Assembly (NCBI GenBank): GCA_001825665.1
Contig: MHXZ01000020.1
Span: forward strand, 1-38,888
Direction of reading: 5' to 3'
DNA: 38,888 bases
Source: Planctomycetes bacterium GWF2_41_51
GTDB taxonomy: Bacteria > Planctomycetota > Phycisphaerae > Sedimentisphaerales > UBA12454
Below the pieces are notes generated by a model. It ran no database searches and was not told where the DNA came from. It was given only the letters and a program-made list of their open reading frames with translations. Shown piece after piece: positions 12,437-33,256 of this stretch. Each line of letters starts with the position of its first letter. Within the stretch, counting starts at the first letter, position 1. The translations under genes were made by a program, and so were the position numbers.

Positions 12437-12461
12437 TATTATTTGTTCTTATTATTAATTT

Positions 12462-12465
12462 GGAG
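12462..12465 (+). promoter_or_regulatory. Ribosome binding site choosing TTG start at 12473
   Basis: GGAG precedes the TTG at 12473 by seven bases and gives a product starting MDSKTRFLMALAHEKPDRVP, which lines up with the N-termini of other UroD-like proteins. The upstream TTG at 12443 lacks a site. Confidence 0.6.
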
Positions 12466-12472
12466 AAATAAA

Positions 12473-13444
12473 TTGGATTCAAAAACGCGTTTTTTAATGG
12501 CGTTGGCACATGAGAAGCCTGACCGGGTTCCGTTTAACTTTTGGATGGACAGAAGATTGATGGCTAAATATGAGCAGTCTATCGGCAATCGACACTGGCG
12601 AGTAACGCACTATGGTGCAGATGTTATAGAATCATTCCCAACTTTAACATTTCCGAGCGGCAAATATGTTGAAGTTGGCTGCGCATCGCGATTGTCTGAA
12701 CCCTATCCTTTACGTTGGGAAAATACAAGCTCAATTCCAATGCCTGATCCAAATGCCGAAGACGTTCTTGAATTAGTCAAAACTGATATAAAGCAATTCC
12801 TAGATAAAGCAGTAATAATGAATGTCATAACACCATGGGGCGTTATTGCTTCAATGTTGGGTTATGAACAAATATATATGGATGTGATGGACCATCGCGA
12901 AGAATTGAAGCAACTTTCACGTCGAATTTGTGATACTTTCAAAGTAGTGGTTGAACGTGCTTGTAGATTGGGCATTACTGCATTATATATCCAGGAAGAT
13001 ATTGCCGACACCAATGGCTTATCAATGTCTATGAATTCGACTTTGGAACATTGTCTTGATTACGCAAAAGAACTTGCCGATATCGCAGCTTACCATAAGA
13101 TTCCCGTACTTTTTCATACCGATGGAAAAATGACAGATGAATTATTCGAGAACTTTATAAAAATTGGAATTAATGCAATCAATCCACTTCAGCCTCACCT
13201 TAATGACATGACCAATTTTAAATCTCGTTTTGGCCAAAAACTTGCTCTTTATGGCGGGCTGGATAATTGTTTCACAATTTCACAAGGTACTCCACAGGAT
13301 ATTCGTGAACATATAGCCAACTTATTTGAAATAGTTGGAAAACCAGATGGAGCCTTAATCTTTTCTTCCCATGATATTGATTACGATGTACCGCCGGAAA
13401 ATATTGAAACGATGATTAATACGATTAAAGCGTGCAAATATTGA
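12473..13444 (+). CDS. UroD-like protein 1 (HTDG form, no zinc Cys)
   Basis: 323 residues from a TTG start. The opening RFLMALAHEKPDRVPFNFW and the TIM-barrel pattern identify the uroporphyrinogen decarboxylase/cobamide-dependent methyltransferase superfamily. In the region where MtaA/CmuA-type methyltransferases have H-x-C, this protein has LFHTDGKMTDE, and near the C-terminus ALIFSSHDIDYDVPPENIE in place of the third zinc Cys. It therefore lacks the zinc-thiol site and is unlikely to be a thiol methyltransferase. True haem-pathway UroD is also unlikely because the gene is embedded in a sugar operon with three paralogues nearby. The reaction is unknown; such proteins are very common in planctomycete and lentisphaerote sugar clusters. 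It is followed 13 bases later by an oxidoreductase gene. Confidence 0.78.
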   Translation: MDSKTRFLMALAHEKPDRVPFNFWMDRRLMAKYEQSIGNRHWRVTHYGADVIESFPTLTFPSGKYVEVGCASRLSEPYPLRWENTSSIPMPDPNAEDVLELVKTDIKQFLDKAVIMNVITPWGVIASMLGYEQIYMDVMDHREELKQLSRRICDTFKVVVERACRLGITALYIQEDIADTNGLSMSMNSTLEHCLDYAKELADIAAYHKIPVLFHTDGKMTDELFENFIKIGINAINPLQPHLNDMTNFKSRFGQKLALYGGLDNCFTISQGTPQDIREHIANLFEIVGKPDGALIFSSHDIDYDVPPENIETMINTIKACKY

Positions 13445-18508: not shown

Positions 18509-19711
18509 CTATAAAGCTCTTAAAAGTTCTTCGAAACTTTGAAACACTATTTTTGTCTCTATAACATTAAGCATTCTTTCAAATGTGACTATAAAGCTGT
18601 ATCTATCCATTAAAGGTGCTTTAATATAAAGTGAGGCAAACAGATTTCCCATCTGAACCGCTTGTTCAATTTCTATTTTATTATTCCTAAAACTACTCGT
18701 TTTTTTTGCAATATACGTAATTAATCCAGCCCTGAACGAATCCCCTGCTCCCGCAAGATCATTAACATTTCCTGTCATAAATGATGAAGTTACTTTAGTT
18801 GGGCCGGTAATATTGCTATGTGCATCCCTATAAATTACATACGCTCCATCTTTTACTGTTACGCCTAATATTCTCGGATTATTGTTGGCGCTCCAAAATC
18901 GAGCCGACAGCCATCTCAGGAAATTCTCAATATATTCCTCTTGGGAAACACCTGCATATCTGCCCTTTTCGCCAATTGTGTTTTCTATCATTCTCGCTTC
19001 ATCATAGGATGTAAAAAATATATCGAGTACAGGCAACAATGGCTCCAGGAGTTTATATTCAAGAACAAATTTTTCTTTTTCTATTAAGCTCTGCGGATTT
19101 CCGGCAAGCGTATGGCTGTCAGCTATTGTTGTTATGCCTTTTTCCATACACCATTTGATAAAATTTGCAAGGTCTTTGCCGTTATTGGCATCACCTCTAT
19201 CTGAAAGGCCGGAATACATATAAAAAACTATCTTGGGTTTCAGTTTTTTGACAGATTTTTTGAAATATTCAAAATCGAACTCATTGTTTGCGTTTGGAAA
19301 ATATACTATTCCGCCGCGTTCGTGGTTTGCTTTTTCATCGATAAATGTTGTGCCTGTAGGCAGATCAGGATGGATGAAAATCTGCGACATATCAACATTA
19401 TATTTTTTCATTGTCTCGTAGAAAAATCTTCCCTGTATATCGAGGCCGTCAAAATTGCCTTTACCGAGATTCACTCCAACAGCAACCTTTAAACCTGCTT
19501 TGGCAATTAAAGGCGCTGTGTTGCCGGGACCGCCTGCCGCTGCTTTTCCTCCATCAATCCATTGTTTGTATAAATTCTGAGTATAGGATGGCATATCGGT
19601 ACTTTTACACTTTGCAAGTCCACCAGGGCCAGCAAGTTTTCCTACAAAGCCAAATTCATCGCTGCGAAAATCTACTACAGCTGTGTTTAAGATAAGTATA
19701 TCTATATTCAT
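18509..19711 (-). CDS. PfkB-family carbohydrate kinase
   Basis: 400 residues from the ATG at 19711; an in-frame ATG at 19753 lies inside the previous gene and adds a non-homologous lead. The N-terminal PfkB glycine region is GGKAAAGGPGNTAPLIAKAG and the C-terminal signature, with the catalytic Asp, is DLAGAGDSFRAGL. At 400 residues it is longer than ribokinase (about 310), with extra sequence around 55-75 and 240-300. It phosphorylates a sugar or sugar acid hydroxyl from ATP. It is last in the minus-strand run from the DeoR regulator, suggesting that it supplies the phosphorylated substrate for the aldolase/thiolase enzymes on the other side of the divergon. Which sugar is not evident. Confidence 0.87.
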   Translation of the reverse strand: MNIDILILNTAVVDFRSDEFGFVGKLAGPGGLAKCKSTDMPSYTQNLYKQWIDGGKAAAGGPGNTAPLIAKAGLKVAVGVNLGKGNFDGLDIQGRFFYETMKKYNVDMSQIFIHPDLPTGTTFIDEKANHERGGIVYFPNANNEFDFEYFKKSVKKLKPKIVFYMYSGLSDRGDANNGKDLANFIKWCMEKGITTIADSHTLAGNPQSLIEKEKFVLEYKLLEPLLPVLDIFFTSYDEARMIENTIGEKGRYAGVSQEEYIENFLRWLSARFWSANNNPRILGVTVKDGAYVIYRDAHSNITGPTKVTSSFMTGNVNDLAGAGDSFRAGLITYIAKKTSSFRNNKIEIEQAVQMGNLFASLYIKAPLMDRYSFIVTFERMLNVIETKIVFQSFEELLRAL

Positions 19712-19730: not shown

Positions 19731-20948
19731 CTAAACAGCATTATACATTGCAATTACTTTTTCAGGGTCAATTTCCGCCGTTATGTTATGAATGCTGTTG
19801 AATACATAACCGCTATCCTGTTTTAAATAATCAACTACCTTTTTTGATTCATTGACAACTTCTTTGATTGATCCCAGCGGGAGAGTAACCTGTGAATTTA
19901 CTCCCCCTCCCCAAAGCGCAATTCTATTTCTGCATTTATCTTTCCATTTCATATACCCCTGCTCACCAGCAGACCATTGGACCGGATTTAGAACATCAAA
20001 GCCGCTTTTAATTATCAAATCTATAATATCATAAATTGCACCACAGCTATGAAGGAAGGTTTTAACTTCTGGAGTAATTTGGTGAATACAATCATTAACA
20101 CGTTTATAGTACGGCAAATACAAATTTTCGAATATAGCCGGTGACGCAATTAGGTTTTGCTGTGTACCCCAATCGTCCGCCGCAAGCATAATTATATCAA
20201 CATTATTAGCAATTTCAGGGAGAATTGCTTCGATCAACTTAACAGTACCTTCGGTTACAATACCATGGTAATCCTGAACAAAACCCGGTTCAGTCATGCA
20301 AATCATTGGCCAAACGGCTAAACCTCCGGGAAGACAGATGGAAATACTTAAACTAATGGGTCCATTTAGAAAGATTGCCTTATCAGTAGAATTACGAACA
20401 TTTTTGCAATGCAATGAAAGTTTTTTGATATATTCATCAGCAGGGAAATACTTGTCCAAATCAGCTTTAACCTGCTTTAAATTCGGCTTCGGTAGTTCTG
20501 CACTAAGATCCAGAGGATTTCCACCATGAGCTAAATCAAAAACAGTAGAAGTAGGTGGCATAATAGAACTTCTTTGTGGTTGTGTTATAGTACCATCAGG
20601 ATGGTCTATAAATATGCTCCTATCGCAGACTCTGGCAGAAAGGCGGCCATTAAAGTCGTAATCTTGCCACTTGTTGGAATCATCAAAAGCATTGGTCACA
20701 CAATCCCAAATAATGACAACATCGCACCCCAAAGCATCAAGCACGTCCATATCGGGCATAGCCAACATTGAACTTGTGTCATGGACACGACATCTTCGCT
20801 GAGGCAATCCTAAAGCTGTTACCAGTTTGGGATAAGCAAAAGCGCTTATACTCGTTGATGCCATACCCCCAAGATCCTTAGGAACACGGTCGACAGATTC
20901 AAAATTTAGCGATCGCATCACACGTTCACGCGAGGTCATAGCACACAT
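19731..20948 (-). CDS. UroD-like protein 2 (HSCG form)
   Basis: 405 residues. The opening MTSRERVMRSLNFESVDRVPKDLGG is typical of the UroD/cobamide methyltransferase superfamily. Its core has FLHSCGAIYDIIDLII, so His and Cys of the zinc site are present, but the third position is VFNSIHNITAE with His instead of Cys. GGGVNSQVTLPLGS is also characteristic of this subgroup, which is frequent in planctomycete and clostridial sugar clusters and biochemically uncharacterised. The start has AAGGA nine bases upstream. It lies 42 bases after UroD-like protein 3 and 19 bases before the PfkB kinase. No corrinoid-binding protein is encoded nearby. Confidence 0.8.
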   Translation of the reverse strand: MCAMTSRERVMRSLNFESVDRVPKDLGGMASTSISAFAYPKLVTALGLPQRRCRVHDTSSMLAMPDMDVLDALGCDVVIIWDCVTNAFDDSNKWQDYDFNGRLSARVCDRSIFIDHPDGTITQPQRSSIMPPTSTVFDLAHGGNPLDLSAELPKPNLKQVKADLDKYFPADEYIKKLSLHCKNVRNSTDKAIFLNGPISLSISICLPGGLAVWPMICMTEPGFVQDYHGIVTEGTVKLIEAILPEIANNVDIIMLAADDWGTQQNLIASPAIFENLYLPYYKRVNDCIHQITPEVKTFLHSCGAIYDIIDLIIKSGFDVLNPVQWSAGEQGYMKWKDKCRNRIALWGGGVNSQVTLPLGSIKEVVNESKKVVDYLKQDSGYVFNSIHNITAEIDPEKVIAMYNAV

Positions 20949-20990: not shown

Positions 20991-22154
20991 TTAATAGGTA
21001 CACTTTGATGCCTCATCACCAAAAACTTTTAGAAGTTCAGGATTACCTTCAAAAAATTGGTCTGATGGACATAGGATGTAAGAACCGTTTTTACCCGCCG
21101 CTTCGAAACAGCGTCTTACTTCTTCGCGAGTCTCGTCGGGATCACAATCTTTAAAATAATGAAACTGGTCAAAGCCGCCTATCATGCAAATATTTTGAGG
21201 GATTCGCCTGCGAGCCTCGGCTAAATTTACATCACCTCCCATGCCAGGAGGAGTAAATGTTTCCATTGCATCAGGTTTCATAGCGGCTATATTTTCGAGA
21301 ATGGCCATCATTCCACCGCACGTATGATAAGAAATCTTTTGTCCAGCTTTATGAGCGATTTCAATTAATTGACTATCGTATGGAGCAACAAATTCATCAA
21401 ATATTTTCGGCGAGATTACTGATGATGATGCACTTCCCCCGCCAAGTTCAAGGATGTCATATTTTGCTCCCTTAAGAGATTCAGTATATATCTTTTTGCG
21501 TTCAAAGAGAATGGATAGAAATTCATGTACCCATTTCGGGTCATCTATTGTTGCCATAATCATCTTTTCAACACCATAAAGACAGCAAGCATCCTGCCAG
21601 GTGCCAGGCTGACCAAAAATATCAAAGCAGCAAATATAACTACGAATCAATCCTCGCTGGCCATAAGAATCCGCTACCCTATTTACAGCTTCAACATCAC
21701 ATTTTGGAGCCGTAACAAATTGGCCGATCAAGTCAATATCATCCTTCTTCTTGACAGGATATTCAGTAACCCAGGCACTATATTCATCAAATTCTAAAAC
21801 CATATTTAAATTGCCCTTGGGAGTAACAAATTTAAATGTTTTGGCCGGATAGTTACGCCCCGGCAGCGTTTCTGATTCTATCCGCCAATCGTCAGTACAT
21901 ATCCGGCGATTTTCAAGAAATCCAATTTCTTTCTGAATGGGATCATAATATTCACCTTTGTTTTCATCAGGTTTGTGATATGTAGGATATGTAATCGGAT
22001 CCCAACCGCAAGCATCATAAAATTCCTCAATCGAAATATCCTCCATATATTTATTGAGATATGATGGCGTAACAAAATGACCTGTCACAGGCAGTCGATC
22101 AGGAATTCCGCCATTTAATGCTATTAACATTCGTTGTTTTGATGTCATTGCCAT
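20991..22154 (-). CDS. UroD-like protein 3 (HTCG plus distal Cys)
   Basis: 387 residues. It begins MAMTSKQRMLIALNGGIPDRLPVTGH, typical of the superfamily. The barrel contains ILELGGG, SYHTCGGMMAILEN and, near the C-terminus, GSYILCPSDQFFEGN. His-x-Cys plus a distal Cys is the zinc site of MtaA/CmuA-type cobamide:thiol methyltransferases, so of the four paralogues here this one is closest to a methyltransferase in metal-site composition. A partner corrinoid protein, normally required, is absent. AAAGG lies five bases before the ATG at 22154. It follows the MFS transporter by 44 bases in the same transcription unit. Confidence 0.82.
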   Translation of the reverse strand: MAMTSKQRMLIALNGGIPDRLPVTGHFVTPSYLNKYMEDISIEEFYDACGWDPITYPTYHKPDENKGEYYDPIQKEIGFLENRRICTDDWRIESETLPGRNYPAKTFKFVTPKGNLNMVLEFDEYSAWVTEYPVKKKDDIDLIGQFVTAPKCDVEAVNRVADSYGQRGLIRSYICCFDIFGQPGTWQDACCLYGVEKMIMATIDDPKWVHEFLSILFERKKIYTESLKGAKYDILELGGGSASSSVISPKIFDEFVAPYDSQLIEIAHKAGQKISYHTCGGMMAILENIAAMKPDAMETFTPPGMGGDVNLAEARRRIPQNICMIGGFDQFHYFKDCDPDETREEVRRCFEAAGKNGSYILCPSDQFFEGNPELLKVFGDEASKCTY

Positions 22155-22198: not shown

Positions 22199-23581
22199 CT
22201 ACGGAGGGGAGTATCCTTTTGCTCCTCCTCGCTGTAGCCACTCTCGATATACGAAGTACATTGGAATGAGCGATAATGCTCCGAAGAAAGCAACCCAAAT
22301 ATATTGATAGCGGTAACTTCCCATAATATCAAAAAACTTTCCGGCCAGAAAATTTCCTATGATGAGTCCAACGCAATTAATTATGGCATTCGCTGAACCG
22401 AATTGGCCGTACTTTTCCTTTGGCACAAGAAGAATAAACATTGGGCCACAACTCACAATATAAAGCACAAATAAAGCCTGTGTAATCATGCTATATATAA
22501 AATAGGTTGACTTATCTTGTATTGTGAAAAATGAAATAGCCATTCCAATAACAAATACGATAATGCCTAAAATATAAATTCGTAAAGGGTGAAATTTGTC
22601 AGAGATAGAACCTAAAGGCACTAATAAGCAGCCTATTAATAATGTGGACCAACCATTAATTTTCCCAATTTCTCCTAAACTCATGCCAAGATTATCACGA
22701 GGGAAAAATATTAAAAATGTGGTAAGCGGGATAAGAGCAATCCCGAAAATGGTTGTGCCCAGAAATATCCATTTATAGATTGGATCGCAAAGGCATTCAC
22801 TTAAATAACGCCTGACCGAATCAACAAAACCTTTGCTTTTAACTCTTTCTGGAGGCAGCTGATACTGCCCTTCTTTAATATATCGGCACATAAGAAGAAA
22901 ACAAATTAAATATGCAATACCAATAACAAGATAGATTTCCTTCATATGAGTGTTTGAGAAACCAAGAATATACCGGTAAAACAAAAATCCCGAAAGCATT
23001 CCCATCACCCGAAACCATGCATAAAACCTGCCCATAAAATGCTCAGGCACAACATCAGGTATTAAATATTGGTAAATAGACGATACGACAAGGTTAAAGA
23101 AATGAAAACATACTGCAAAAATACAAATTAGTGTGAGTGTTAAGCCAATTTTAGAAAAACTGTAAGAAGAAAATATGTTCGATGCCAACCATTCGCCAAT
23201 TACATCACTATATCCAATCAAAATTAAAAACAAAGCAAGAAATGGCGTTCCTAATAAAATGAAAGGAATACGTCGTCCAAAACGGCTTCTATATCTATCG
23301 CTTTTGACACTTATTATGGGATTAATTAAAATGTTCATTAAACTTGGCATACTGCCCACAACCAAGCCTATAACCATATTTGAGGCGTTCATAGCTTTCA
23401 GCGATAGAGGTAATAATGTTGGAATAGTCATTGTCATTAGCATAAAGAAGAAATTACCCAGCAGCAACCAGATAAAAACAATGATTAAGCTAAATCGCGA
23501 GTATCGCAATGTCCCCACCTGATATGGTGATGCAGCTTTTGTATTAACTTCATTATTCGCACAATCAAGGTTACTGCTCAT
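22199..23581 (-). CDS. MFS sugar:cation symporter (MFS_2/GPH-like)
   Basis: 460 residues with about 12 membrane segments in two halves. The loop after the second segment, SVKSDRYRSRFGRRIPFILLG, is the diagnostic motif of the sucrose/GPH-type branch of the major facilitator superfamily; the central loop after helix 6 is charged (KEGQYQLPPERVKSKGF). It should import a sugar or glycoside with protons or sodium. The start has AAGGA six bases upstream. It lies 55 bases downstream of E1-beta in the DeoR-led run. Together with the SSS symporter at 10364-12436 it means two secondary transporters serve the island, one per catabolic block. Confidence 0.87.
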   Translation of the reverse strand: MSSNLDCANNEVNTKAASPYQVGTLRYSRFSLIIVFIWLLLGNFFFMLMTMTIPTLLPLSLKAMNASNMVIGLVVGSMPSLMNILINPIISVKSDRYRSRFGRRIPFILLGTPFLALFLILIGYSDVIGEWLASNIFSSYSFSKIGLTLTLICIFAVCFHFFNLVVSSIYQYLIPDVVPEHFMGRFYAWFRVMGMLSGFLFYRYILGFSNTHMKEIYLVIGIAYLICFLLMCRYIKEGQYQLPPERVKSKGFVDSVRRYLSECLCDPIYKWIFLGTTIFGIALIPLTTFLIFFPRDNLGMSLGEIGKINGWSTLLIGCLLVPLGSISDKFHPLRIYILGIIVFVIGMAISFFTIQDKSTYFIYSMITQALFVLYIVSCGPMFILLVPKEKYGQFGSANAIINCVGLIIGNFLAGKFFDIMGSYRYQYIWVAFFGALSLIPMYFVYREWLQRGGAKGYSPP

Positions 23582-23636: not shown

Positions 23637-24653
23637 CTATTTTAGTATTATTTGTCGTATTTCGTTACAAATCCTTTGAACCTGCGGCACATAAAAGTTT
23701 TCCATGGGCGGTGAAAATGGAACAATCGTATCTGGCGCAGCGATTCTTTTTATTGGCGCATTAAGCAAATCCACAGCTTCTTCTGCAATTGTTGCTGCAA
23801 TTTCAGCACCTATGCCTGAACGCTTGGGGCTTTCTTCAACAATCATCAGTCTTGATGTCTTTGCAATAGATTTTTTAAGCGTTACATAATCAAAAGGAAC
23901 TAAAGAACGAGGATCAATAACTTCTACACTAATTCCTTCTTTTTGAAGTTGCTCTGCTGCCTGCAGACATTTATGCATCATTAATAGTGTACCTACTACT
24001 GTAATATCATCTCCACAGCGTCTGACAACAGCCTGACCAAATGGAATAGTAAAATCTTCTTCAGGTATTTCGCTTGAACCATCTATCGCCCCGCTTTCTG
24101 CGCGAGCGCCTTTTGAACCATACAAGAGTTTATGTTCAAATATCATGACAGGATCCTGTCCTCTAACAGCAGTCCTAAGTAACCCAACGGCATCGTATGC
24201 TGTTGCGGGACAGACAATTTTCACTCCCTGAAGGGGCATGAAAAATGTCTCCATATTTTGAGCATGCTGTGAACCTCGGCCAGTAACTCCAACCGGTGCT
24301 CTCATCACAATTGGCACGTTTAGTTTTCCACCCGACATATAACGCAGTTTGGCGATATTGTTACAGATTTGATCCATAGCGCAAAATAAGAAATCAGCAT
24401 ACTGCACATCAGCGATAGGCTTCATTCCCATTAAAGCAGCACCACAGGCTATACCGAAAAAGCCTGCCTCGGATATTGGTGTATTAATCATCCGATGCGA
24501 AAATTCTTTTTCCATTCCAAGCGTTACGGTAAACGCACCACCCCAACCTCCAGGAATCGCTATATCTTCGCCGATACAAAAAACTCTCTCATCACGAGCC
24601 ATCTCCTGACGAATTGCCATTCTCAACGCTTCTGCTATTCCCATTTTTTGCAT
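23637..24653 (-). CDS. TPP-dependent dehydrogenase E1-beta subunit (pyruvate/acetoin type)
   Basis: 338 residues. The transketolase pyrimidine-binding region is present (FCIGEDIAIPGGWGGAF, TPISEAGFFGIACGAALMGMKPIADVQYADF), followed by the transketolase C-terminal domain (DITVVGTLLMMHKCLQAAEQL, EVIDPRSLVPFD). Glu in TPISEAG is the residue that activates thiamine diphosphate. Length and order are normal for the beta subunit of heterotetrameric pyruvate, branched-chain or acetoin dehydrogenase E1. GGAG five bases before the ATG lies in the end of the alpha gene, two bases upstream. No E2 acyltransferase or E3 gene follows; the next gene is a transporter. Substrate cannot be decided from sequence. 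Confidence 0.9.
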   Translation of the reverse strand: MQKMGIAEALRMAIRQEMARDERVFCIGEDIAIPGGWGGAFTVTLGMEKEFSHRMINTPISEAGFFGIACGAALMGMKPIADVQYADFLFCAMDQICNNIAKLRYMSGGKLNVPIVMRAPVGVTGRGSQHAQNMETFFMPLQGVKIVCPATAYDAVGLLRTAVRGQDPVMIFEHKLLYGSKGARAESGAIDGSSEIPEEDFTIPFGQAVVRRCGDDITVVGTLLMMHKCLQAAEQLQKEGISVEVIDPRSLVPFDYVTLKKSIAKTSRLMIVEESPKRSGIGAEIAATIAEEAVDLLNAPIKRIAAPDTIVPFSPPMENFYVPQVQRICNEIRQIILK

Positions 24654-24655
24654 AT

Positions 24656-25627
24656 CTACTCCGCAAACATATCACTAAGAGCATCTTCAGGTTTCGGTTC
24701 AGCAGCACTTTTCGCAGCCTCAACTACAACATCCAATTCTTTTTCAATATTATTTTCTATTTCTTCAAGCTGCTGATGTGAAGCATACAAATTATCAACA
24801 AGATACTTGCCAAAGCGGCCTATTGGTTCATTCTTTTTAGCCTCTGCACGTTCTTGCGCAGGCTGATATAAACAAGGATCACGTCTTGAATGACCGGTAA
24901 TTCTATAAGTAACTAGCTCCAGCAGAGTAGGGCCTTGACCATTTCTTGCTCTTTCTGCAACTTCTTTCGAAGCCTCATAAACTTCAAGCACATCATTACC
25001 ATCAATTGTTATACCAGGAATTTTATATATTGATGCTCTTTCAGATATTTTATCCGTTCTGATAGTAAGATTAACATGAGTGGACGCACCATAGAGATTA
25101 TTTTCTATTACAAATACAACAGGCAACTGCCAAAGAGCCGCCATATTAAGAGTTTCATGAAATATCCCTTCATTTGTTGCGCCATCTCCGATAAAAGAAA
25201 CAGCAATACGCTTTTCCTCTCGCATTTTAAAAGCCAAAGCTGCACCGGCGGCAAGAGGCAAATTACCTCCAACGATTGCAATGGCTGGAATCATTCCCTT
25301 TTCTAAATCCCCGAGGTGCATCGACCCGCCTTTACCTTTGCAGCAGCCGGTTAATTTGCCAAAAAGCTCATCCATCATTGATTGAACGCTTACGCCTTTT
25401 GCAATAGCATGGCCGTGAGGACGATGAGTCGAAGTAATAATATCATCTTTTTTAAGCGCCGTGCAAACCCCAACAGCAGTCGCTTCTTGTCCTTGGCACT
25501 GGTGAATTGTGCCTGGCATTACTCCTTCTAAAAACAAAAATTTTACTCTTTCTTCGAATTGCCGAATAAGTACCATTTTTTGGTAAATTTCGAGTAAAAA
25601 TTCTTTTGAATATTTTTCTTTTGTCAT
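24656..25627 (-). CDS. TPP-dependent dehydrogenase E1-alpha subunit (pyruvate/acetoin type)
   Basis: 323 residues from the second of two adjacent ATGs (25627), chosen because GGAG then has a five-base spacing; the longer in-frame start at 25675 would run into the lipoyl gene. Hallmarks are HQCQGQEATAVG, the THRPHGHAIAKG loop, GGSMHLGD and the magnesium/thiamine motif GDGATNEG followed by NN. THRPHGH and the lack of the branched-chain-type N-terminal extension fit the pyruvate/acetoin branch. It forms E1 with the beta subunit and decarboxylates or cleaves a 2-oxo compound, passing the acyl group to a lipoyl arm. The companion lipoyl domain is encoded immediately upstream as a separate protein. 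Confidence 0.9.
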   Translation of the reverse strand: MTKEKYSKEFLLEIYQKMVLIRQFEERVKFLFLEGVMPGTIHQCQGQEATAVGVCTALKKDDIITSTHRPHGHAIAKGVSVQSMMDELFGKLTGCCKGKGGSMHLGDLEKGMIPAIAIVGGNLPLAAGAALAFKMREEKRIAVSFIGDGATNEGIFHETLNMAALWQLPVVFVIENNLYGASTHVNLTIRTDKISERASIYKIPGITIDGNDVLEVYEASKEVAERARNGQGPTLLELVTYRITGHSRRDPCLYQPAQERAEAKKNEPIGRFGKYLVDNLYASHQQLEEIENNIEKELDVVVEAAKSAAEPKPEDALSDMFAE

Positions 25628-25643
25628 CATTTCTCCAACAGGG

Positions 25644-25901
25644 CTATTTAGGAATACTTTCGCCTGGTTCCCCAATATAGGCTATAATAGTGCCAACTGA
25701 AATTTCGGAATCCTCGGCGACAATTTGTTTTAATAATACACCACTTGCGATTGATTCAATTTCTACATTAGCTTTGTCGGTTTGAACTTCACAAATCGAT
25801 TCCCCCCTTTTAACTTGCTCTCCTTCTTTTTTGAGCCATTTAATCAAAATAACAGATTCGACAGTCGTTCCCACATCCGGCATTTTAATTTCTTTAATCA
25901 T
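25644..25901 (-). CDS. Free-standing lipoyl (biotinyl-lipoyl) domain protein
   Basis: 85 residues, a single lipoyl domain: MPDVGTTVESVILIKWLKKEGEQV, then the modified lysine in VQTDKANVEIES, then the closing GTIIAYIGEPG. In dehydrogenase complexes this domain is the N-terminus of E2 and carries the acyl group from E1. Here the protein stops at residue 85, with no peripheral-subunit-binding or acyltransferase domain, and the sequence between it and E1-alpha is too short to hold a missing part. The start ATG at 25901 has TAGGA overlapping the stop codon of the DeoR gene, so translation is coupled. It may dock with an E2/E3 encoded elsewhere, or act as a soluble carrier like GcvH. Confidence 0.9.
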   Translation of the reverse strand: MIKEIKMPDVGTTVESVILIKWLKKEGEQVKRGESICEVQTDKANVEIESIASGVLLKQIVAEDSEISVGTIIAYIGEPGESIPK

Positions 25902-25910
25902 TACTTATTC

Positions 25911-26717
25911 CTAAAAATTCGCCACTGATTCTTTTAACTGAGCAGTTATAACTTTTGCAACATTAGCTTCCAAAACTACTCGGTTATCATTATCAAGACC
26001 GCTATCGGTTATTACAGTATGTATTTGAGATATATCAAAAACCTTGCAAAGGCTTTTTTGTCCGAATTTAGTATGATCTGCTAACAAGATCACCTCATCG
26101 CAATGAGAAGCTAAAATTTGTTTGATACGAAAAGTTTCCGCTGATGATTCAAATGTTCCAACTGAAGGAGAAAATCCTTTAGTGGAAAAAAATGCTTTTT
26201 TAACGAAATATTTATGAGCGTGTTCTTCTGTGTTTGGCCCTGTAAGACAACAGCTTACAGGGTCATATTGCCCACCAAGACTTACTATAGATATATTCGA
26301 GCTTCGGGCCAATTCCATGTGAATAAGCAGTGAATTTGTTACTATAGTTAAAGCCTTAGATTGTTCAGCTATTTTTTTTGCTAATTCGAGACAAGTCGAA
26401 CTGCCATCCAGGTATATGATTTCACCAGGTTCAATATAATTGCTTGCTTCAATTGCAATGGCTTTCTTTTCTGCTCCATTAATGGACAAGCGATTCGCAA
26501 CTGGCGATTCATATACATCATTAATAGATTTTGCAAGTTGTGCTCCGCCAAGAGTTTTAATAACTAACTCTTCCTGTGCAAGAAAGTCTATATCTCTTCT
26601 TATAGTCATATTAGAGACATCAAACTTGCTTTCAAGTTCCAGATAAGAAGCTGTTTTTTTGCTTTCGATGTACTCCAATATTTCTCTTTGCCGATTATTC
26701 AGATTTTCGTAACTCAT
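25911..26717 (-). CDS. DeoR-family transcriptional regulator
   Basis: 268 residues. The N-terminal DeoR helix-turn-helix (NNRQREILEYIESKKTASYLELESKFDVSNMTIRRDIDFLA, then GGAQL) is followed by the sugar-phosphate-sensing domain (IYLDGSSTCLELAKKI, TIVTNSLLIHMELA, VSLGGQYDPVSCCLTGP, EVILLADHTKFGQ), an isomerase-like fold that binds phosphorylated sugars. DeoR proteins usually repress catabolic operons until a sugar phosphate accumulates. It leads the minus-strand run and is divergent from the aldolase/thiolase operon, so it probably controls both. AGGA lies seven bases before the ATG. Its candidate promoter overlaps one copy of a repeated 9-mer, consistent with autoregulation. Confidence 0.9.
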   Translation of the reverse strand: MSYENLNNRQREILEYIESKKTASYLELESKFDVSNMTIRRDIDFLAQEELVIKTLGGAQLAKSINDVYESPVANRLSINGAEKKAIAIEASNYIEPGEIIYLDGSSTCLELAKKIAEQSKALTIVTNSLLIHMELARSSNISIVSLGGQYDPVSCCLTGPNTEEHAHKYFVKKAFFSTKGFSPSVGTFESSAETFRIKQILASHCDEVILLADHTKFGQKSLCKVFDISQIHTVITDSGLDNDNRVVLEANVAKVITAQLKESVANF

Positions 26718-26827: not shown

Positions 26828-26860
26828 TTTAATCATATAAGAATAAACAAATGATCCTTT

Positions 26861-26865
26861 GGGAG
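26861..26865 (+). promoter_or_regulatory. Ribosome binding site choosing ATG at 26871
   Basis: GGGAG five bases before the ATG at 26871; a TTG at 26859 in the same frame overlaps this site and is rejected as start. Confidence 0.65.
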
Positions 26866-26870
26866 TTCAC

Positions 26871-27770
26871 ATGAGTCTAATAAAACTATCTGATATGCTG
26901 AAAAATGCACAAAAAAATGGCTATGCTGTGGGATATTTCGAAGCATGGGACACATATTCTTTTGAGGCTGTTCTGGAAGCCGCCGAGGAAGAAAATTCTC
27001 CTGTTGTTTTAGGTTTCGGCGGTATGACTATGCATCAGGATTGGCTTAAAAGGTATGGAATCGCGCCTTTAGGACATTATGGTATTAAAATAATTGAGTC
27101 ATCTAAAATTCCTGCGGCTTTCATTCTTAACGAAGTTCCAAAAATTGAACATATAAAATCTGGCATTGGAACAGGCTTCAATACTGTTATGCTTGATAGC
27201 AGTTATCTTGCTTTCAAACAAAATGTAACTATAACCTCTAAGGTTGTAAAACTTGTAAAACCATATAACATCGAAGTTCAAGCGGAATTAGGCAGGCTGC
27301 CAACTTTTGGCGAAACATCTGATGGCGGCTTAACAGACCCCGATCAAGCTGAAGAATTTGTAAAGAAAACAGGTGTAGATTTTCTTGCAGTTTCAATAGG
27401 TAATGTCCATCTTCAGACAAATGGATCCTTCAATGTTGACACTTTAAGATTAGAAAAAATACGTGAAAAAGTTCCTGTACCCCTTGTTTTGCATGGTGGA
27501 AGTGGTTTCCCAAATAATGTCGTAGATAATGTTATCAAAGCCGGAATAAGCTTATTTCATTATGGAACAGCAATGAAAAAAGCTTTTCTGGAAGAAACAG
27601 TTAAACATCTAAAAAAAATCCCGAATAAGATTGATTACCAGGCTTTTGTAGGTTGCCGTAAAGCAACTGATATTTTGATGCCTGCTAAAAAAGCAATAAA
27701 AAACATTGTAAAAAGACAAATAAAATTATATGGCTCATCTAATAAGGCCAAATTATTTAAGAAAGGATAA
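26871..27770 (+). CDS. Class II (FBP/tagatose-bisphosphate type) aldolase-fold protein with altered active site
   Basis: 299 residues. The fold is that of KbaY/GatY/FbaA class II aldolases: start [21 protein letters not shown], then [38 protein letters not shown] with His180 and [10 protein letters not shown] with His208, the two zinc histidines at the positions usual for GatY/KbaY. However, the LHLDH block that holds the catalytic Asp and the first zinc His reads FILNEV (Asn87, Glu88). A zinc site could survive as Glu-His-His, but the proton-donating Asp is lost. The C-terminus is basic and ends in Lys-rich sequence. It is first gene of the operon divergent from DeoR and is followed directly by lsrF. 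It may be an aldolase of changed mechanism, or an isomerase-like relative. Confidence 0.8.
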
Positions 27771-27772
27771 AA

Positions 27773-28660
27773 ATGCCAGAAGCAGATGTAAGCAAAAAAG
27801 AAAAAGAATATTCTGTAAATATCCCGCAGCAAACCCCTGGTTTCTTCCTCAAAGGAGCTGGCAACTTGGATTGGGGAATGAAAAATCGCCTCTCACGTAT
27901 ATTTAATCCAAAAACCGGCCGAACAGTTATGCTTGCTATTGATCATGGCTATTTTCAGGGACCAACTACTGGACTGGAACGAATAGATTTGAATATCGTT
28001 CCTCTAATGCCTCATGCTGACGCACTTATGCTTACTCGCGGCATCCTGAGGTCAATAGTGCCTCCATCAATCACCAAGCCAATTGTTATGCGATGCAGCG
28101 GCGGCCCAAGTATTCTTAAAGAACTTTCAAATGAAGAACTTGCGGTCGATATTGAAGATGCCATTAGAATGAACGTATCAGCAATCACTCTTCAAGTCTT
28201 CATCGGCGGAGAATTTGAAACTCGTTCAGTGCATAATATGACTAAACTCGTGGATATGGGTCTGCGTTACGGAATACCTACGATGGCCGTTACCGCTGTT
28301 GGAAAAGATATGGTTAGAGATGCTAAATATTTCCGTCTGGCGTGCAGAATCTGTGCTGAACTCGGCGCTCAATTCGTAAAAACTTATTTTGTGCCTGAAG
28401 ATTTTGAAACTATCACAGCTTCCTGCCCTGTTCCGATTGTTATGGCCGGCGGCAAAAAACTGCCTGAACTCGATGCCTTAACTATGGCTTATAATGCAAT
28501 CCAGCAAGGCGCCGCAGGTGTTGATATGGGCCGAAATATATTCCAGTCCGATGCCCCGGAAGCAATGATGCAGGCAGTTAGCAAAGTTGTTCATGAAAAT
28601 ATGAAACCACAGGATGCTCTTGATCTTTACAATACAATCAAAAATAAAACGAAAAAATAG
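27773..28660 (+). CDS. lsrF: LsrF-type thiolase (3-hydroxy-5-phosphonooxypentane-2,4-dione thiolase homologue)
   Basis: 295 residues. Long blocks match E. coli LsrF as I recall it: [65 protein letters not shown] with Lys203, [15 protein letters not shown] and [12 protein letters not shown]. LsrF is a class I aldolase-fold enzyme that uses its lysine and CoA to split phosphorylated HPD, the AI-2 derivative, into DHAP and acetyl-CoA. The short N-terminal lead ending [13 protein letters not shown] is also LsrF-like. None of LsrA, B, C, D, R, K or G is encoded here; neighbours are an aldolase-fold protein (2-base gap) and an Rpe homologue (3-base gap). It may therefore cleave another phosphorylated beta-diketone or 4-keto sugar. 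AAAGGA precedes the ATG. Confidence 0.82.
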
Positions 28661-28663
28661 AAT

Positions 28664-29368
28664 ATGAAAAACAAAAAGGCGATTATCGATGAAATTAAAG
28701 CATCCGCCCCGCTTCTAAGCGTAGGCATACTCACGGCTGATTTAATGAATCTTGGTTTAGAAATAAAAATACTTGAAGATGCGGGCATAAAATTGCTGCA
28801 CATCGATGTAATGGATGGCAAAATCTGGCCTAAAATCACGGTTGGCTCATCTTTTGTGCAGGGAATCAAAACACCTATCCTTAAAGATGTCCATCTTTTA
28901 ATCGATAAGCCTGAAAATCAGATTGAGAACTTTATCAATGCAGGTGCCAATGTATTAACCTTTTCAATCGAATATTGCAGTGATGTCAAAAGAACATTTA
29001 ATATTATAAAGCAAATGCCGCAAGCGAAAGAGATGTTAGTTGGTTTGTCGCTTAATCCATCAACATCTATTGACAGTATAACTCCTTTTATCGATGATAT
29101 TGATGCTATTCTGTTGTTGGCAATAGGTCCTGATACGGGAAATAACAACTTTATTTCAGCTTTGCCTGAAAGAATTGCTCAATTAAGAAAAATCAAAAAA
29201 GACGTTTTAATTTTTGTAGATGGTGCGATTAAGAAAGATAATATTTCACAAGTTACATCAATGAATCCCGATGTTATCGTAGCGGGCAGCGGGATCTTTG
29301 ATGGTAAAGATCCCGCCGGCAATTTAAAATTTATGATTGATGCTGTTGAAAAAGGGAAAATAAAATGA
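28664..29368 (+). CDS. Ribulose-phosphate 3-epimerase family protein
   Basis: 234 residues, normal family length. The metal and catalytic residues are all present: His46 and Asp48 in LHIDVMDG, His77 in DVHLLIDKP, and Asp186 in VDGAIKK; the phosphate-binding end VAGSGIFDG is also intact. The central segment usually reading LMTVNPGF is replaced by LLLAIGPDTGNN, so the protein departs from housekeeping Rpe in the substrate loop, and it may act on another ketose phosphate, as do allulose-6-phosphate epimerases. It begins three bases after lsrF, without a clear ribosome binding site of its own, and its stop overlaps the SDR start (ATGA), so translation is probably coupled throughout. Confidence 0.85.
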   Translation: MKNKKAIIDEIKASAPLLSVGILTADLMNLGLEIKILEDAGIKLLHIDVMDGKIWPKITVGSSFVQGIKTPILKDVHLLIDKPENQIENFINAGANVLTFSIEYCSDVKRTFNIIKQMPQAKEMLVGLSLNPSTSIDSITPFIDDIDAILLLAIGPDTGNNNFISALPERIAQLRKIKKDVLIFVDGAIKKDNISQVTSMNPDVIVAGSGIFDGKDPAGNLKFMIDAVEKGKIK

Positions 29369-30183
29369 CATGCAAAAAATTACTTGATGGCAAAGTAGCC
29401 CTAATTACCGGCGCAGCCGGCGCAATTGGATATGGAATATGTGAAGTTCTTCTCGAAAATGGCTGCACTATAGCAGCTTCAGATATCGATAGTGAAAAGC
29501 TTGCAGAATTTGGAGATGACATTGAAAAATTATCGCCGGGTAAAACATCAACAGTTGTTATGGATGTTACTGATACAGCCTCTGTAAAGAATGGTTTTTC
29601 CGATGTCCTTCAGAAATTCGGCAGAATTGATATTGTGATTCATAATGCGGGCATAGCTTATGTATCCAAAATAATGGATATGGATTTGAAAAAATTCCAA
29701 CTTCTCGAAAAAGTGAATGTCGAAGGTACACTCATAATATTAGCCGAAGCTGCAAGGTGTTTCCTTGAACAAAAAACCCAAGGTGATATTGTAATTATGT
29801 CCACGAAAAATGTACCTTCTCCAAGCGCTGGATTTGGTGCATATAGCTGTACAAAAGCGGCCTGTCATCAGCTTGGCAGAATTGCCAGCCTCGAATTTGC
29901 TGAATATGGAATCCGCGTCAATATGGTTGCTCCTGATGCCGTTTTCTCTGAAGGAAAATATAAATCGGGATTGTGGGATTTGGTTGGCGCAGACCGTATG
30001 AAAGCTCGTGGAATAAATGAAAAAGAATTACATGAGTATTATCGTAATCGCAATTTGCTCAAGTCTGCCGTTACAGGCCGAGATGTAGGCAACGCGGTTT
30101 TATATTTTGTAAGCCGTCAAAGCCCTACCACCGGCGCAACTATTCCCGTCGATGGCGGCTTGCCCGATGCTACACCAAGATAA
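29365..30183 (+). CDS. Short-chain dehydrogenase/reductase (YuxG/RhaW C-terminal-domain-like)
   Basis: 272 residues. The nucleotide-binding motif is ITGAAGAIG (TGxxxGxG), followed by HNAGIAY (NNAG variant), STKNVPSPSAGFGAYSCTKAA with Ser and the YxxxK pair, and a C-terminal PVDGG. It resembles the SDR half of bifunctional class II aldolase/dehydrogenases (YuxG, also called RhaEW), where the aldolase splits rhamnulose-1-phosphate and the SDR oxidises lactaldehyde. Here it is a separate gene placed before the aldolase, three bases away. The segment GLWDLVGADRMKARGI and the ELHEYYRNRNLL run are also typical of that subgroup. It probably oxidises an aldehyde product or a sugar hydroxyl with NAD. 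AAGGG precedes the ATG. Confidence 0.83.
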   Translation: MTCKKLLDGKVALITGAAGAIGYGICEVLLENGCTIAASDIDSEKLAEFGDDIEKLSPGKTSTVVMDVTDTASVKNGFSDVLQKFGRIDIVIHNAGIAYVSKIMDMDLKKFQLLEKVNVEGTLIILAEAARCFLEQKTQGDIVIMSTKNVPSPSAGFGAYSCTKAACHQLGRIASLEFAEYGIRVNMVAPDAVFSEGKYKSGLWDLVGADRMKARGINEKELHEYYRNRNLLKSAVTGRDVGNAVLYFVSRQSPTTGATIPVDGGLPDATPR

Positions 30184-30186
30184 CGG

Positions 30187-31362
30187 ATGCTTATGAAAGA
30201 AGACAAAGAACTTTCTGATCTTATAGCAATATCAAATATTGTTGGTTGCGATAAAACACTTGTTCAGGGTGGAGGCGGCAATACATCCGTCAAAACAGAC
30301 AATGGTAGCGGAATGTATATAAAAGCAAGCGGTACTGCACTTGGAGATATGAATTTTCAAAAAGGCTGGCGAAAGGTAAAAATAAATAAAGTTAAAAATA
30401 TATTTGAAGATAGCCAACTTTCGGAAATGGACGATTTCAATAGGGAAAACAGAATTGTCAGTTATTTGCTGAAAGCTTGTGATGATGATATTAAGGAAAA
30501 TATAAGACCTTCTGTTGAAGCACCCTTTCACGCTATTCTTGACAAATATGTAGTTCATCTTCACGCGTTATCAGTACTTGCGTTGGTATGCGCAAAAGGC
30601 GGGAAAGAAGTCCTTGAACAAACATTCTCTAATCAACGCAATCCTATTTTATGGATACCATATGCAAATCCTGGTTATTCATTGGGTATTGAAATTTACA
30701 AATATGTAAAAGATTATGTTGAGAAACATGGCCAATTACCTAACATTATTTTTTTAGAGAAACATGGGGTTATAATTACATCGAAATCAAAAGGCCAAAT
30801 ACTACAACTAATTAAAAATGTCATTGATACTCTAAATAATATCTTGACTAACCAAATTGCAAAAGATTCCTTATATAATGATTTTACAAAAGAACATTTA
30901 AACATACGCAATTCTGTGGAAACAGCTTTGTATAAAATAACTGGACAAGTATGTCTTTTAAACCAATTCATTGATAACTACATAATTAATTTTTGTCGGC
31001 GGAAAGATGCCACAAAGTTGTTAAAATCGCCGCCAATGACACCAGATGAGATGGGCTTCGTTGAAAATATAATATGGCTAAACAATTATGATTTTGATTC
31101 TGTCAAGGATAAGATTGAAGTCGCGATTAAGAAGAATGACAAAGTACCTACTACATTCATGACAAGAGAAGGCGGGCTTTTAATACGTGCAAATAAAAAA
31201 CTCTCGGTGGTTATTAGAGATATAGTTGCAGGTTCATTATTTGTGAGAGTTGAAGCCCAAAAGTTTGGAGGTATCAATTCTTTAAACAGCCAACAACGTA
31301 AATTTATACAAAACTGGGAAGCTGAAAAATTCAGAGTACAACTCGCTGCCAAGGGAGCGTGA
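30187..31362 (+). CDS. Class II aldolase/adducin-fold aldolase (YuxG/RhaE-like)
   Basis: 391 residues. GGGGNTSVK near residue 28, VKASGTALGDM-like IKASGTALGDM, the zinc pair His124-x-His126 in VVHLHALSVLALV and His193 in LEKHGVI identify the class II aldolase/adducin family; the length and GGGGNTSVK start fit the aldolase half of YuxG-type bifunctional proteins, minus the SDR half, which is the preceding gene. The family cleaves ketose-1-phosphates such as L-rhamnulose-1-phosphate to DHAP and an aldehyde. About residues 225-391 form an extra C-terminal region. The start may be at 30187 or at the ATG at 30193; neither has a strong ribosome binding site. It ends two bases before the isomerase start. 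Confidence 0.82.
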   Translation: MLMKEDKELSDLIAISNIVGCDKTLVQGGGGNTSVKTDNGSGMYIKASGTALGDMNFQKGWRKVKINKVKNIFEDSQLSEMDDFNRENRIVSYLLKACDDDIKENIRPSVEAPFHAILDKYVVHLHALSVLALVCAKGGKEVLEQTFSNQRNPILWIPYANPGYSLGIEIYKYVKDYVEKHGQLPNIIFLEKHGVIITSKSKGQILQLIKNVIDTLNNILTNQIAKDSLYNDFTKEHLNIRNSVETALYKITGQVCLLNQFIDNYIINFCRRKDATKLLKSPPMTPDEMGFVENIIWLNNYDFDSVKDKIEVAIKKNDKVPTTFMTREGGLLIRANKKLSVVIRDIVAGSLFVRVEAQKFGGINSLNSQQRKFIQNWEAEKFRVQLAAKGA

Positions 31363-31364
31363 TA

Positions 31365-32054
31365 ATGAAAAGAAATGAAGTAAATAAATTGATTGAATAC
31401 GCAAAGAATGTTTTGCATAAAAACAACATTATTTTGCCGCCATTTGCTTATTGGTCTCCTGCCGATTGGAAAAACAAAGGCCCTGAATGTGATGAAATTC
31501 GTAAATGTATGTTAGGTTGGGATATCACAGATTTTGGTTCAAATAACTTTTATAAAGTAGGACTAGTTGTATTTACTTTAAGGAACGGCCATCATACGAT
31601 CGCACCATTTACTTCCAAGCCGTATGCTGAAAAGATTTTGATAGTTCAGCCTGACCAGCACACTCCTATGCATTTTCACAAAAGTAAAATGGAAGACATA
31701 ATTAACCGGTGCGGTGGCAATTTGATAATTCAGCTCTTTAATTCTGACAAAAATGAATCTCTTGCTGATACCGATATTGAGATTTCATTGGATGGTGTAG
31801 CGAAAAAAGTAACTGCTGGTTCAAAGATGGTCTTAAAGCCTGGAGAATCCATCACGATCCCTCCATATTTGTATCACGAATTTTGGGCTGATCACACAAA
31901 TGGATACGTGATTGCCGGCGAGGTGTCAAAAGTCAATGATGACAACATAGATAATAGGTTTTTAAATATTGTAGGCAGATTCCCAGACATTGAGGAAGAC
32001 TGCCAGATTAATCATTATCTTTGCAGTGAATATCCAATCGCTCTTTCTAATTAA
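31365..32054 (+). CDS. D-lyxose ketol-isomerase-type cupin sugar isomerase
   Basis: 229 residues from the ATG at 31365, seven bases after GGGAG; a GTG at 31359 is too close to that site. The metal-binding cupin motifs are QHTPMHFHKSKMEDIINRCGGNL with His103, His105 and Glu110, and YLYHEFW with His171, followed by AGEVSKVNDD. This is the signature of D-lyxose isomerase (YdaE type), a manganese enzyme interconverting D-lyxose and D-xylulose and also acting on D-mannose/D-fructose and L-ribose in characterised members. It is the only ketol isomerase seen in the window, and so is the likely entry step for a free aldose into the divergon pathway, giving a ketose for the PfkB kinase. Confidence 0.88.
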   Translation: MKRNEVNKLIEYAKNVLHKNNIILPPFAYWSPADWKNKGPECDEIRKCMLGWDITDFGSNNFYKVGLVVFTLRNGHHTIAPFTSKPYAEKILIVQPDQHTPMHFHKSKMEDIINRCGGNLIIQLFNSDKNESLADTDIEISLDGVAKKVTAGSKMVLKPGESITIPPYLYHEFWADHTNGYVIAGEVSKVNDDNIDNRFLNIVGRFPDIEEDCQINHYLCSEYPIALSN

Positions 32055-32095: not shown

Positions 32096-33256
32096 ATGAG
32101 ATTCGAAATAAACATTGATTATCCTCTTGAAAAAATGGAAGCCTCGCGAAAACGTATGGAATCATGGCTAAAGTTCAAATATATTGATCGTGTTCCGGTA
32201 GCATTTTGTGTTGTTCCACGATATTTCACGCCTATTTTTAAAATTCCATACAAAGAGATATTCAAAGATGTTGAAACTCAATATTATTGGCTGCTTCAAT
32301 TTGCCAAATATAACATGGAGAACATACCCAGCGATGCCTTTTGTTCTCCGGCAATAAGTATATTACCTTATTTCGATAATGTGGTTGATGCAGATGCAAT
32401 GGGGGCTCAGATTGTTTGGCCAGAAAATGAAACATTACATGCTATCCCCTATATTAAGACAATTGAGCAAATGGAAGCATTTGAGATTCCTCCCGTAAAC
32501 AGTGGATTATGGGGGCGGACTATTGAGTGGTGGCTTAAGATGAAGGATTTTGCTGCTCAGACACGAGTCACTTTTGCAGGACATGAAGGACATATTGAAA
32601 TGGGATTATTAGGAATCAGCGGTATTGGCCCCCATATGATTGCGATTGATTTAGTCGGCACAGATTTTTATTGGTGGATATTGGAGTATCCTCAAGCGTG
32701 TCACCGTTTTTTGAATAAGATAACCCAAGCTTTAATCAAGTTTGACAAACATTGCCGTACCATCGACAAACGTCAACGCACAGATGTAAGTCTGGCCGAG
32801 GACTCTTCGCAAATAATGTCTGCTCAACAATTCGTAGAGTTCACAGTTCCTTACGATCGCATGTTGTATGAATCACTTCCCGACATTCCTAATACTCGGC
32901 GTGGTATGCACATGTGCGGTAAAAGCCAGCACCTGCATAAGGCACTGGTGGAAGAACTTAAAATTGATGCTTTTAATGTATTTGGCTACTTAGTGCCACC
33001 GGCTGTTGCTGCGGAAAATATGGGCGGAAAAGTAGCTTTATTTGGTAACATTAATCCTATGCTTATACACAAAGGCTCGAAAGAACAGATTAAGCAGGCT
33101 TGCTGGGAAGCTATAGATGTAATGGGGCCATATGGCGGCTTTATGCTTGGTGATGGTGCAAATGTTTGTCCCGGAACACCTCTTGAAAATTTGGCTGCAT
33201 TCGTCGAAACCGCTGAGGAATATGGTCTTGGCGGTGGAAAACTTCCACATGATTGA
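32096..33256 (+). CDS. UroD-like protein 4 (HMCG plus distal Cys)
   Basis: 386 residues. The N-terminal RMESWLKFKYIDRVPVAFCV and the barrel pattern place it in the UroD/cobamide methyltransferase superfamily. The metal-site region reads GMHMCGKSQHLHK, with His-x-Cys, and a distal Cys is in LGDGANVCPGTPLENL, so a zinc-thiolate site is possible, as in UroD-like protein 3, though the two proteins are otherwise far apart. VFGYLVPPAVAAENMGGKVALFGNINPM corresponds to the usual GGI/GNI strand. AAAGGA stands eight bases before the ATG. It is 41 bases after the isomerase and belongs to the same plus-strand run. Function unknown. Confidence 0.8.
   Translation: MRFEINIDYPLEKMEASRKRMESWLKFKYIDRVPVAFCVVPRYFTPIFKIPYKEIFKDVETQYYWLLQFAKYNMENIPSDAFCSPAISILPYFDNVVDADAMGAQIVWPENETLHAIPYIKTIEQMEAFEIPPVNSGLWGRTIEWWLKMKDFAAQTRVTFAGHEGHIEMGLLGISGIGPHMIAIDLVGTDFYWWILEYPQACHRFLNKITQALIKFDKHCRTIDKRQRTDVSLAEDSSQIMSAQQFVEFTVPYDRMLYESLPDIPNTRRGMHMCGKSQHLHKALVEELKIDAFNVFGYLVPPAVAAENMGGKVALFGNINPMLIHKGSKEQIKQACWEAIDVMGPYGGFMLGDGANVCPGTPLENLAAFVETAEEYGLGGGKLPHD

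Follow-up and report, generated by a model that had tools for sequence, protein, structure and literature searches.

How does an E1 enzyme pass on its acyl group when the lipoyl arm is a separate small protein and no E2 is encoded in the operon? In textbook 2-oxoacid dehydrogenases the swinging arm is tied to E2, the subunit-binding domain (PSBD) of E2 binds E1 and E3, and the intermediate is channelled. The question is raised by a contig of Planctomycetes bacterium GWF2_41_51 (MHXZ01000020.1, here C20), which in its entire length of 38,888 nucleotides is the window of this study. On its minus strand a free lipoyl protein of 85 amino acids (aa), E1-alpha and E1-beta follow each other in consecutive genes. 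This layout, without E2 or E3, was the core of the original prediction, and the open reading frames (ORFs), the Pfam matches and a search of the contig all agree with it: C20 holds no match to the E2 acyltransferase domain (PF00198) or to the E3 dimerisation domain, and its ends lie at least 12.9 kb from the lipoyl and E1 genes. On balance we think it probable, judging from sequence, that these genes form an E1-plus-carrier module, whose acyl-lipoyl arm would be served in trans by one E2 and one E3 shared across the genome.

The lipoyl protein matches Pfam Biotin_lipoyl with 71.8 bits (cut-off 22.1) over the full profile (1-73 of 73). The TDKA motif is invariant across eight aligned lipoyl domains, and the AlphaFold model (mean pLDDT 84.5) matches solved E2 lipoyl domains in Foldseek. 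The ORF has its own stop codon (25646-25644) and is not fused to subunit-binding or acyltransferase domains. A frameshift at 25644 that splits off an E2 remnant had been named as a way in which the prediction could fail. The sequence rules out both frameshift and remnant, because only 13 bp separate the lipoyl stop from the likely ATG of E1-alpha. The TTG start listed for E1-alpha (25675) would overlap the lipoyl gene; from a reading of the sequence the ATG at 25630 is likelier, with a ribosome-binding-like TTGGAGA ahead of it. On the other side, the DeoR gene ends about 10 bp ahead of the lipoyl ATG.

By sequence family, both the alpha and the beta subunit of a thiamine pyrophosphate-dependent E1 are present. 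E1-alpha matches E1_dh with 303 bits; its best NCBIfam match, the pyruvate dehydrogenase (PDH) model TIGR03182, reaches 347 bits, below the cut-off of 393.85, and its best solved relative is human PDH E1-alpha (E 1.4e-60). E1-beta matches Transket_pyr (139.5 bits) and Transketolase_C (130.4 bits), scores 311 bits against NF006667 (below the cut-off of 321), and is closest among solved structures to 1ik6 (E 2e-80), which carries the name pyruvate dehydrogenase.

A proposed shared E2 and the E1 systems of the genome

The assembly is a draft of 4.83 Mb in 138 contigs, 95.6% complete. The genome-wide scan for E2 and E3 that the original prediction called for finds two acyltransferase domains, one lipoyl-bearing (on contig C75) and one lipoyl-less (C12), and E3-type matches on C96, C95 and C67, all of them off C20. 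The C75 E2 is 325 aa long, with a lipoyl and an acyltransferase domain and no PSBD. It keeps the catalytic His in the motif DHRIANG, where Asn replaces Asp, as it does in A. vinelandii E2p according to the accessible part of PMC9681731. The 451-aa E3-type protein on C95 is, from its sequence, a good E3 candidate. LipB- and LipA-like genes lie about 0.55 kb apart on C27. The LipB-like gene came from a search with PF21948; PF03099 gave only a ligase read as BirA-like.

The window operon is one of three E1 systems in this genome, each adjoining its own lipoyl-only gene. On C92 the lipoyl-only gene stands beside a fused E1-alpha/beta of 745 aa, and on C61 beside an AceE of 903 aa; E1-alpha type genes (PF00676) are found on C20 and C92. 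Besides these three lipoyl-only genes, Biotin_lipoyl (PF00364) has two matches genome-wide: the C75 E2, and a 161-aa frame that is probably of the AccB type. Docking with a distant complex, one of three roles first proposed for the lone lipoyl protein, is the best supported of them, given the unlinked C75 E2 with its His, the C95 E3, LipA and LipB, and the two similar E1 systems.

Could the C12 protein be the dedicated catalytic partner instead? A free lipoyl domain and a free acyltransferase domain would together make one E2, and C12 is under purifying selection (dN/dS, the ratio of nonsynonymous to synonymous substitution rates, is 0.06-0.09 in its two pairs; 0.06-0.10 over the three pairs of lipoyl-less genes compared, at high dS). 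The protein has 234 aa, PF00198 is the sole domain matched, without N-terminal lipoyl and E3-binding domains, and its AlphaFold model matches the E2 core fold. However, its catalytic His is replaced by Ser, and this is typical of its kind. Once identical domains were merged, the His and the H...[N/D]G motif were present in 56/56 readable lipoyl-bearing domains (two more were unreadable), whereas the lipoyl-less domains have the His in only 11 of 44 and the motif in eight, so that 33 of 44 have lost it. C12-type relatives with an open frame of at most 282 aa occur in 42/58 genomes of the order (matches cut by contig ends excluded), including family genomes with no listed lipoyl-only protein. 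A split E2 was rejected as the main idea after the His comparison, and we consider it very unlikely.

The C12-type protein appears instead to have a structural role beside the E2 core, as suggested by its modelled fold and by analogy with E3BP (protein X). Mammalian E3BP has likewise lost the catalytic His. The two differ in that C12 is without lipoyl and E3-binding domains; for E3BP no catalytic function is known, as far as the accessible text of PMC8146983 goes. Three further genomes of the window's genus (G125, G161 and G184) have both kinds of E2 domain, but no E1-alpha match and no lipoyl-only frame.

The operon slot in relatives

We sought the closest E1-alphas in a species-level genome collection and found 43 loci by exact peptide patterns. 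Locus L027 and genome G205 were taken as the same genome, L212 repeats L027, and L213 comes from genome G317. The window E1-alpha is 73% identical to that of L027, from a metagenome-assembled genome (MAG) of the Sedimentisphaerales, and 74% identical, over 93 residues at a contig end, to that of a Kiritimatiellae MAG (L068); a Verrucomicrobiota MAG (L028) and a Lentisphaeria MAG (L029) follow with 62% and 57%. This E1-alpha is rare in the window's own order, which we infer to be Sedimentisphaerales: at least 60% identity was found in only 3 of 161 genomes, namely its own, G205 (73%) and G317 (67%).

What fills the slot directly upstream of E1-alpha varies among these loci. In L068 and L213 it is a full E2 of 383-385 aa with lipoyl, E3_binding (the PSBD) and acyltransferase domains, in L029 a 157-aa protein with lipoyl and E3_binding, and in the window and L027 the lipoyl domain alone. 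In L028 a lipoyl domain is fused to the N-terminal end of E1-alpha (414 aa). An E1-alpha tree places the six loci in one clade (support 100/99; 40 rows, of which L068 covers only 27% of the columns). The same six come together (99/97) in a tree of lipoyl domains, which has 46 rows but only 81 columns. Because both trees group these six, we conclude that the free lipoyl protein of the window belongs with the E2 lipoyl domains of this operon type.

This placement bears on a second of the proposed roles, that of a GcvH-like shuttle, and more widely on any GcvH- or LbpA-like shuttle that has nothing to do with acyl transfer. Single-lipoyl LbpA proteins are indeed known in sulfur oxidation, as the available part of PMC6067878 describes. 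Nevertheless, the window protein has no match to GCV_H (PF01597) at E<=0.001, it clusters with E2 lipoyl domains, among them those of the same slot, and its gene lies between the DeoR gene and E1-alpha. We regard the shuttle role as exceedingly unlikely.

How widespread are such carriers? We fetched 60 loci around E1 matches in the order, a subset of all E1 matches. In 37 a lipoyl-to-acyltransferase ORF lies near E1. Three more (L216, L221 and L222) have a lipoyl-plus-PSBD ORF of 420-423 aa that the E2 query did not match; this suggests a diverged E2, and they were left out of the lipoyl-only count. That count stands at three (L212, L254 and L260), and in two loci (L214 and L215) Pfam confirms a lipoyl domain at the C-terminal end of E1-alpha/beta. 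G205, from another family of the order, has both an operonic free lipoyl gene and a second E1 with a C-terminal lipoyl domain. Near E1 in 14 of the 60 loci, several of them cut by contig edges, there was neither a lipoyl nor an E2 arrangement. The remaining locus (L266, genome G240) was dropped as a lipoyl-only case, as its gene continues into unresolved bases (N).

Within the genus the pairing of E1 and carrier is regular. The fused E1 is followed by a lipoyl-only gene in 4/4 genomes where this E1 was seen (L014, which is the window genome's own C92, L254, L260 and L300), and AceE by a lipoyl-only gene in three genomes (L017, L299 and L301), which were chosen for an adjoining lipoyl match; the free lipoyl domain beside AceE forms a long branch in the lipoyl-domain tree. 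Across the family, a single-lipoyl frame of E2 size (322-370 aa) is present in 13/13 genomes and lipoyl-only frames of at most 100 aa in five of the 13: three in the window's own genome (G000), two each in G211 and G325, and one each in G102 and G209. We found no E1 around the family E2, either in the window's genome or in ten fetched surroundings from other family genomes. Among the ten family E2s scanned, E3_binding matches are absent at E<=1; when five others of the order are added to these ten, 5/15 have a match at E<=0.1. A literature search gave nothing pertinent on Sedimentisphaerales together with pyruvate dehydrogenase.

Some carriers of the genus and family stand in company of their own. 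In the three AceE genomes an encapsulin shell gene immediately precedes AceE and the lipoyl-only gene (L017:5017-9655, from C61; PF04454, 218 bits), and in L017 it overlaps the start of AceE. L017 also has, upstream, a small rubrerythrin-like protein whose sequence ends in LSVGNIKKSN, and a second rubrerythrin-like gene on the downstream side. Our literature search found nothing linking encapsulin with pyruvate dehydrogenase and lipoyl. In G209 (contig C42, L302:4831-5109) a 93-aa lipoyl-only protein has as neighbours UroD-like genes and a gene pair resembling a split transketolase, with no E1 of the E1_dh type adjoining.

The same comparisons speak to the possibility that the lipoyl gene is the leftover of a decaying E2, its E1 being non-functional or a plain 2-oxoacid decarboxylase. 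The rest of that E2 is gone, and E1-alpha/beta pairs without any lipoyl gene do occur in the family. Yet the lipoyl fold and the TDKA motif are complete, the arrangement persists in L027 at 73% E1-alpha identity, and purifying selection acts on the lipoyl-only genes beside the other E1s of the genus (dN/dS 0.04-0.13 in nine pairs; between the window and L027 lipoyl genes dS is saturated). Decay therefore strikes us as distinctly improbable.

We return to the preferred reading, an E1-carrier module with a shared E2. Here the sugar pathway encoded by the two divergent operons would supply E1-alpha/beta with a 2-oxoacid or a related ketone, and the enzyme would load the acyl group onto the lipoyl-lysine of its own 85-aa carrier. 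This carrier would be what the operon has kept of an E2, namely its lipoyl domain; the subunit-binding and acyltransferase domains seem to have been trimmed away, probably because one shared copy in the genome does their job. Untethered, it would diffuse to the C75 E2 core, which by its sequence is the only hub with a catalytic His; coenzyme A would take the acyl group, and the carrier would be reoxidised at the shared E3 (C95). The fused E1 of C92 and the AceE of C61 may work on the same plan, giving one E2/E3 hub with several swappable modules. Lipoylation of the carrier, docking in trans, the substrate and the flux are all predicted here from sequence.

Several points weigh against this proposal. 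Between the window lipoyl protein and its counterpart domain in the C75 E2, sequence identity is low (about 35%), so docking there does not follow from the sequence. Both full-E2 loci (L068 and L213) are nested inside the six-member E1-alpha clade, and for this reason the E1-alpha tree fits two histories about equally well: repeated losses of E2 domains, or a single loss together with a regain. Four family loci (L219, L237, L263 and L267) have E1-alpha/beta with no lipoyl gene in the fetched surroundings. Finally, a cognate E2 could sit in sequence missing from the draft, with the free lipoyl protein as just an auxiliary arm. Such an E2, complete and hidden in the unassembled 4% or so of the genome, would match the full E2 in the slot of L068 and L213. 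Against it, L027 is independently lipoyl-only in this slot, and the single E2 gene of its genome is located elsewhere than the E1 operon. We consider a hidden E2 unlikely.

A further E1-alpha/beta pair (L230), like these four, has no lipoyl or E2 gene in its fetched surroundings; L230, L263 and L267 form a clade.

Gene company and the sugar pathway

The minus-strand run reads DeoR, lipoyl, E1-alpha, E1-beta, MFS, UroD, UroD and PfkB, and a second operon diverges from it (Table 1). The gene company, with its sugar kinases, aldolases and the trio of LsrF, ribulose-phosphate 3-epimerase (RPE) and short-chain dehydrogenase (SDR), suggests that these genes serve a sugar pathway, one that perhaps handles deoxysugars. 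Two more UroD-like genes, at 12443-13444 and 32096-33256, bring those of this sugar-degradation cluster to four; these two were assigned by weak similarity or sequence reading.

Table 1. Positions of the window genes and of features at other loci
Feature	Coordinates	Strand	Match or basis
DeoR-family regulator, first gene of the run	25911..26717	-	PF00455 + PF08220
Free lipoyl protein, 85 aa, lipoyl-lysine in QTDKANV	25644..25901	-	PF00364
E1-alpha, likely ATG 25630	24656..25630	-	PF00676
E1-beta	23637..24653	-	PF02779 + PF02780
MFS-type transporter, downstream of E1-beta	22199..23581	-	ORF; named by sequence reading only
UroD-like gene	20991-22154	-	PF01208 confirmed
UroD-like gene	19731-20948	-	weak similarity or sequence reading
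PfkB-family sugar kinase	18509..19708	-	PF00294, 64.4 bits
Class II fructose-bisphosphate-type aldolase, opens the divergent operon	26859..27770	+	PF01116, 209.9 bits
LsrF-like thiolase/aldolase	27773..28660	+	NF006081, 513.6 bits (cut-off 297)
RPE family	28664..29368	+	PF00834, 146.5 bits
SDR	29365..30183	+	PF13561; NF006194, 366 bits over the SDR half of aldolase/SDR fusions
Class II aldolase	30187..31362	+	PF00596, 49.1 bits
D-lyxose isomerase family	31359..32054	+	PF07385, 313.8 bits
E1-alpha + E1-beta + C-terminal lipoyl in one chain, 807-aa frame	L214:4213-6633		Pfam
E1-alpha + E1-beta + C-terminal lipoyl in one chain, 853-aa frame	L215:4928-7486		Pfam
Lipoyl-less E2 homologue (G000, C12); order-wide, including L112-L128 and L172-L193	L015:7200-7904		PF00198

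An LsrF in the divergent operon, already part of the original prediction, is borne out by the NF006081 score. Might the acyl group then go to a non-standard acceptor, such as an intermediate handled by LsrF, without any E2? The LsrF-RPE-SDR genes do accompany this E1 type in the window, in L027/L212 and in L213. However, an E2 with its catalytic His is available in the genome, and L213 combines the trio with a full E2, so LsrF does not replace E2 there. We give this last of the three proposed roles little credence.

The gene company differs between the loci. In L027 it includes an FGGY kinase, a RuBisCO-like protein and a TIM-barrel protein, and in L213 genes read from sequence as alpha-L-fucosidases. 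In L027 (7316-8662, PF00016) and L068 (1674-3134, identified by similarity) the RuBisCO-like gene is flanked by the FGGY kinase on one side and, on the other, by the gene for the lipoyl protein or E2. A literature search gave nothing pertinent on a RuBisCO-like protein together with LsrF.

Speculating from this company, we can picture an E1 that acts like an acetoin dehydrogenase. The SDR and the epimerase, with the RuBisCO-like protein in L027 and L068, might convert a 6-deoxyketose phosphate to a methyl-ketone acyloin; E1 would split off its acetyl group and load it on the free carrier, from which the shared E2 or the LsrF-like thiolase would collect it. We hold this to be rather improbable. 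If true, rhamnose- or fucose-type sugars would reach acetyl-CoA by a route so far unrecorded, through a plug-in E1-carrier module.

Comparison with known systems

Like a canonical PDH or 2-oxoacid dehydrogenase complex, the window genome has E1 subunits, a lipoyl domain, E3 and LipA/LipB. It differs in that the lipoyl protein is separate, the operon has no E2 and the scanned family E2s have no PSBD. Haloferax has a 2-oxoacid dehydrogenase complex operon with an unattached lipoyl gene, on which our literature search found no paper. In archaea, proteins that consist of one lipoyl domain are a recognised class, according to the accessible part of PMC3904984; the protein described here shares that build, but is bacterial, stands beside E1 genes and belongs to a slot series of E2 states.

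Service in trans also has precedents. Actinobacterial OdhA uses the lipoyl groups of AceF in trans, and one E2 is common to several E1s (PMC10415282 and PMC8146983, in the parts available to us). There, however, E2 carries the lipoyl group and E1o the fused acyltransferase, whereas the lipoyl protein of the window is unattached and its gene adjoins that of E1. Human 2-oxoadipate dehydrogenase E1a similarly has no E2 of its own and borrows E2o and E3, and the available text of PMC8146983 mentions no separate lipoyl carrier for it.

An association of the lipoyl domain with E1, not with E2, is seen in NF008854, a PDH E1-beta with an N-terminal lipoyl domain; the window lipoyl protein matches positions 1-84 of this profile and the window E1-beta positions 139-462. 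The difference is that the domain is free here, or in relatives sits on E1-alpha (L028) or at the C-terminal end of E1-alpha/beta (L214 and L215). LbpA of Hdr-like sulfur oxidation is another small free lipoyl protein beside its enzyme, but is GcvH-like and serves other chemistry, as far as the consulted part of PMC6067878 describes it. Its typical neighbours are hdr-like genes and a special LplA; the genes identified in the window are those of sugar metabolism.

Our search of the literature on detached or missing lipoyl domains, which beyond the papers cited here covered titles and abstracts, found no such bacterial arrangement with E1; most subscription journals lay outside it, which makes this weak evidence of novelty. 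Since single-lipoyl proteins and E2-borrowing E1s are already known, the window system varies a known theme. What this lineage appears to have done is to untie the arm, drop the PSBD and retain several pairs of E1 and carrier for a single E2. If so, it would allow a clean test, set up by nature, of how far the chemistry depends on tethering, for which the slot states, from full E2 through lipoyl plus PSBD and lipoyl alone to the lipoyl-E1 fusion, offer matched natural variants.

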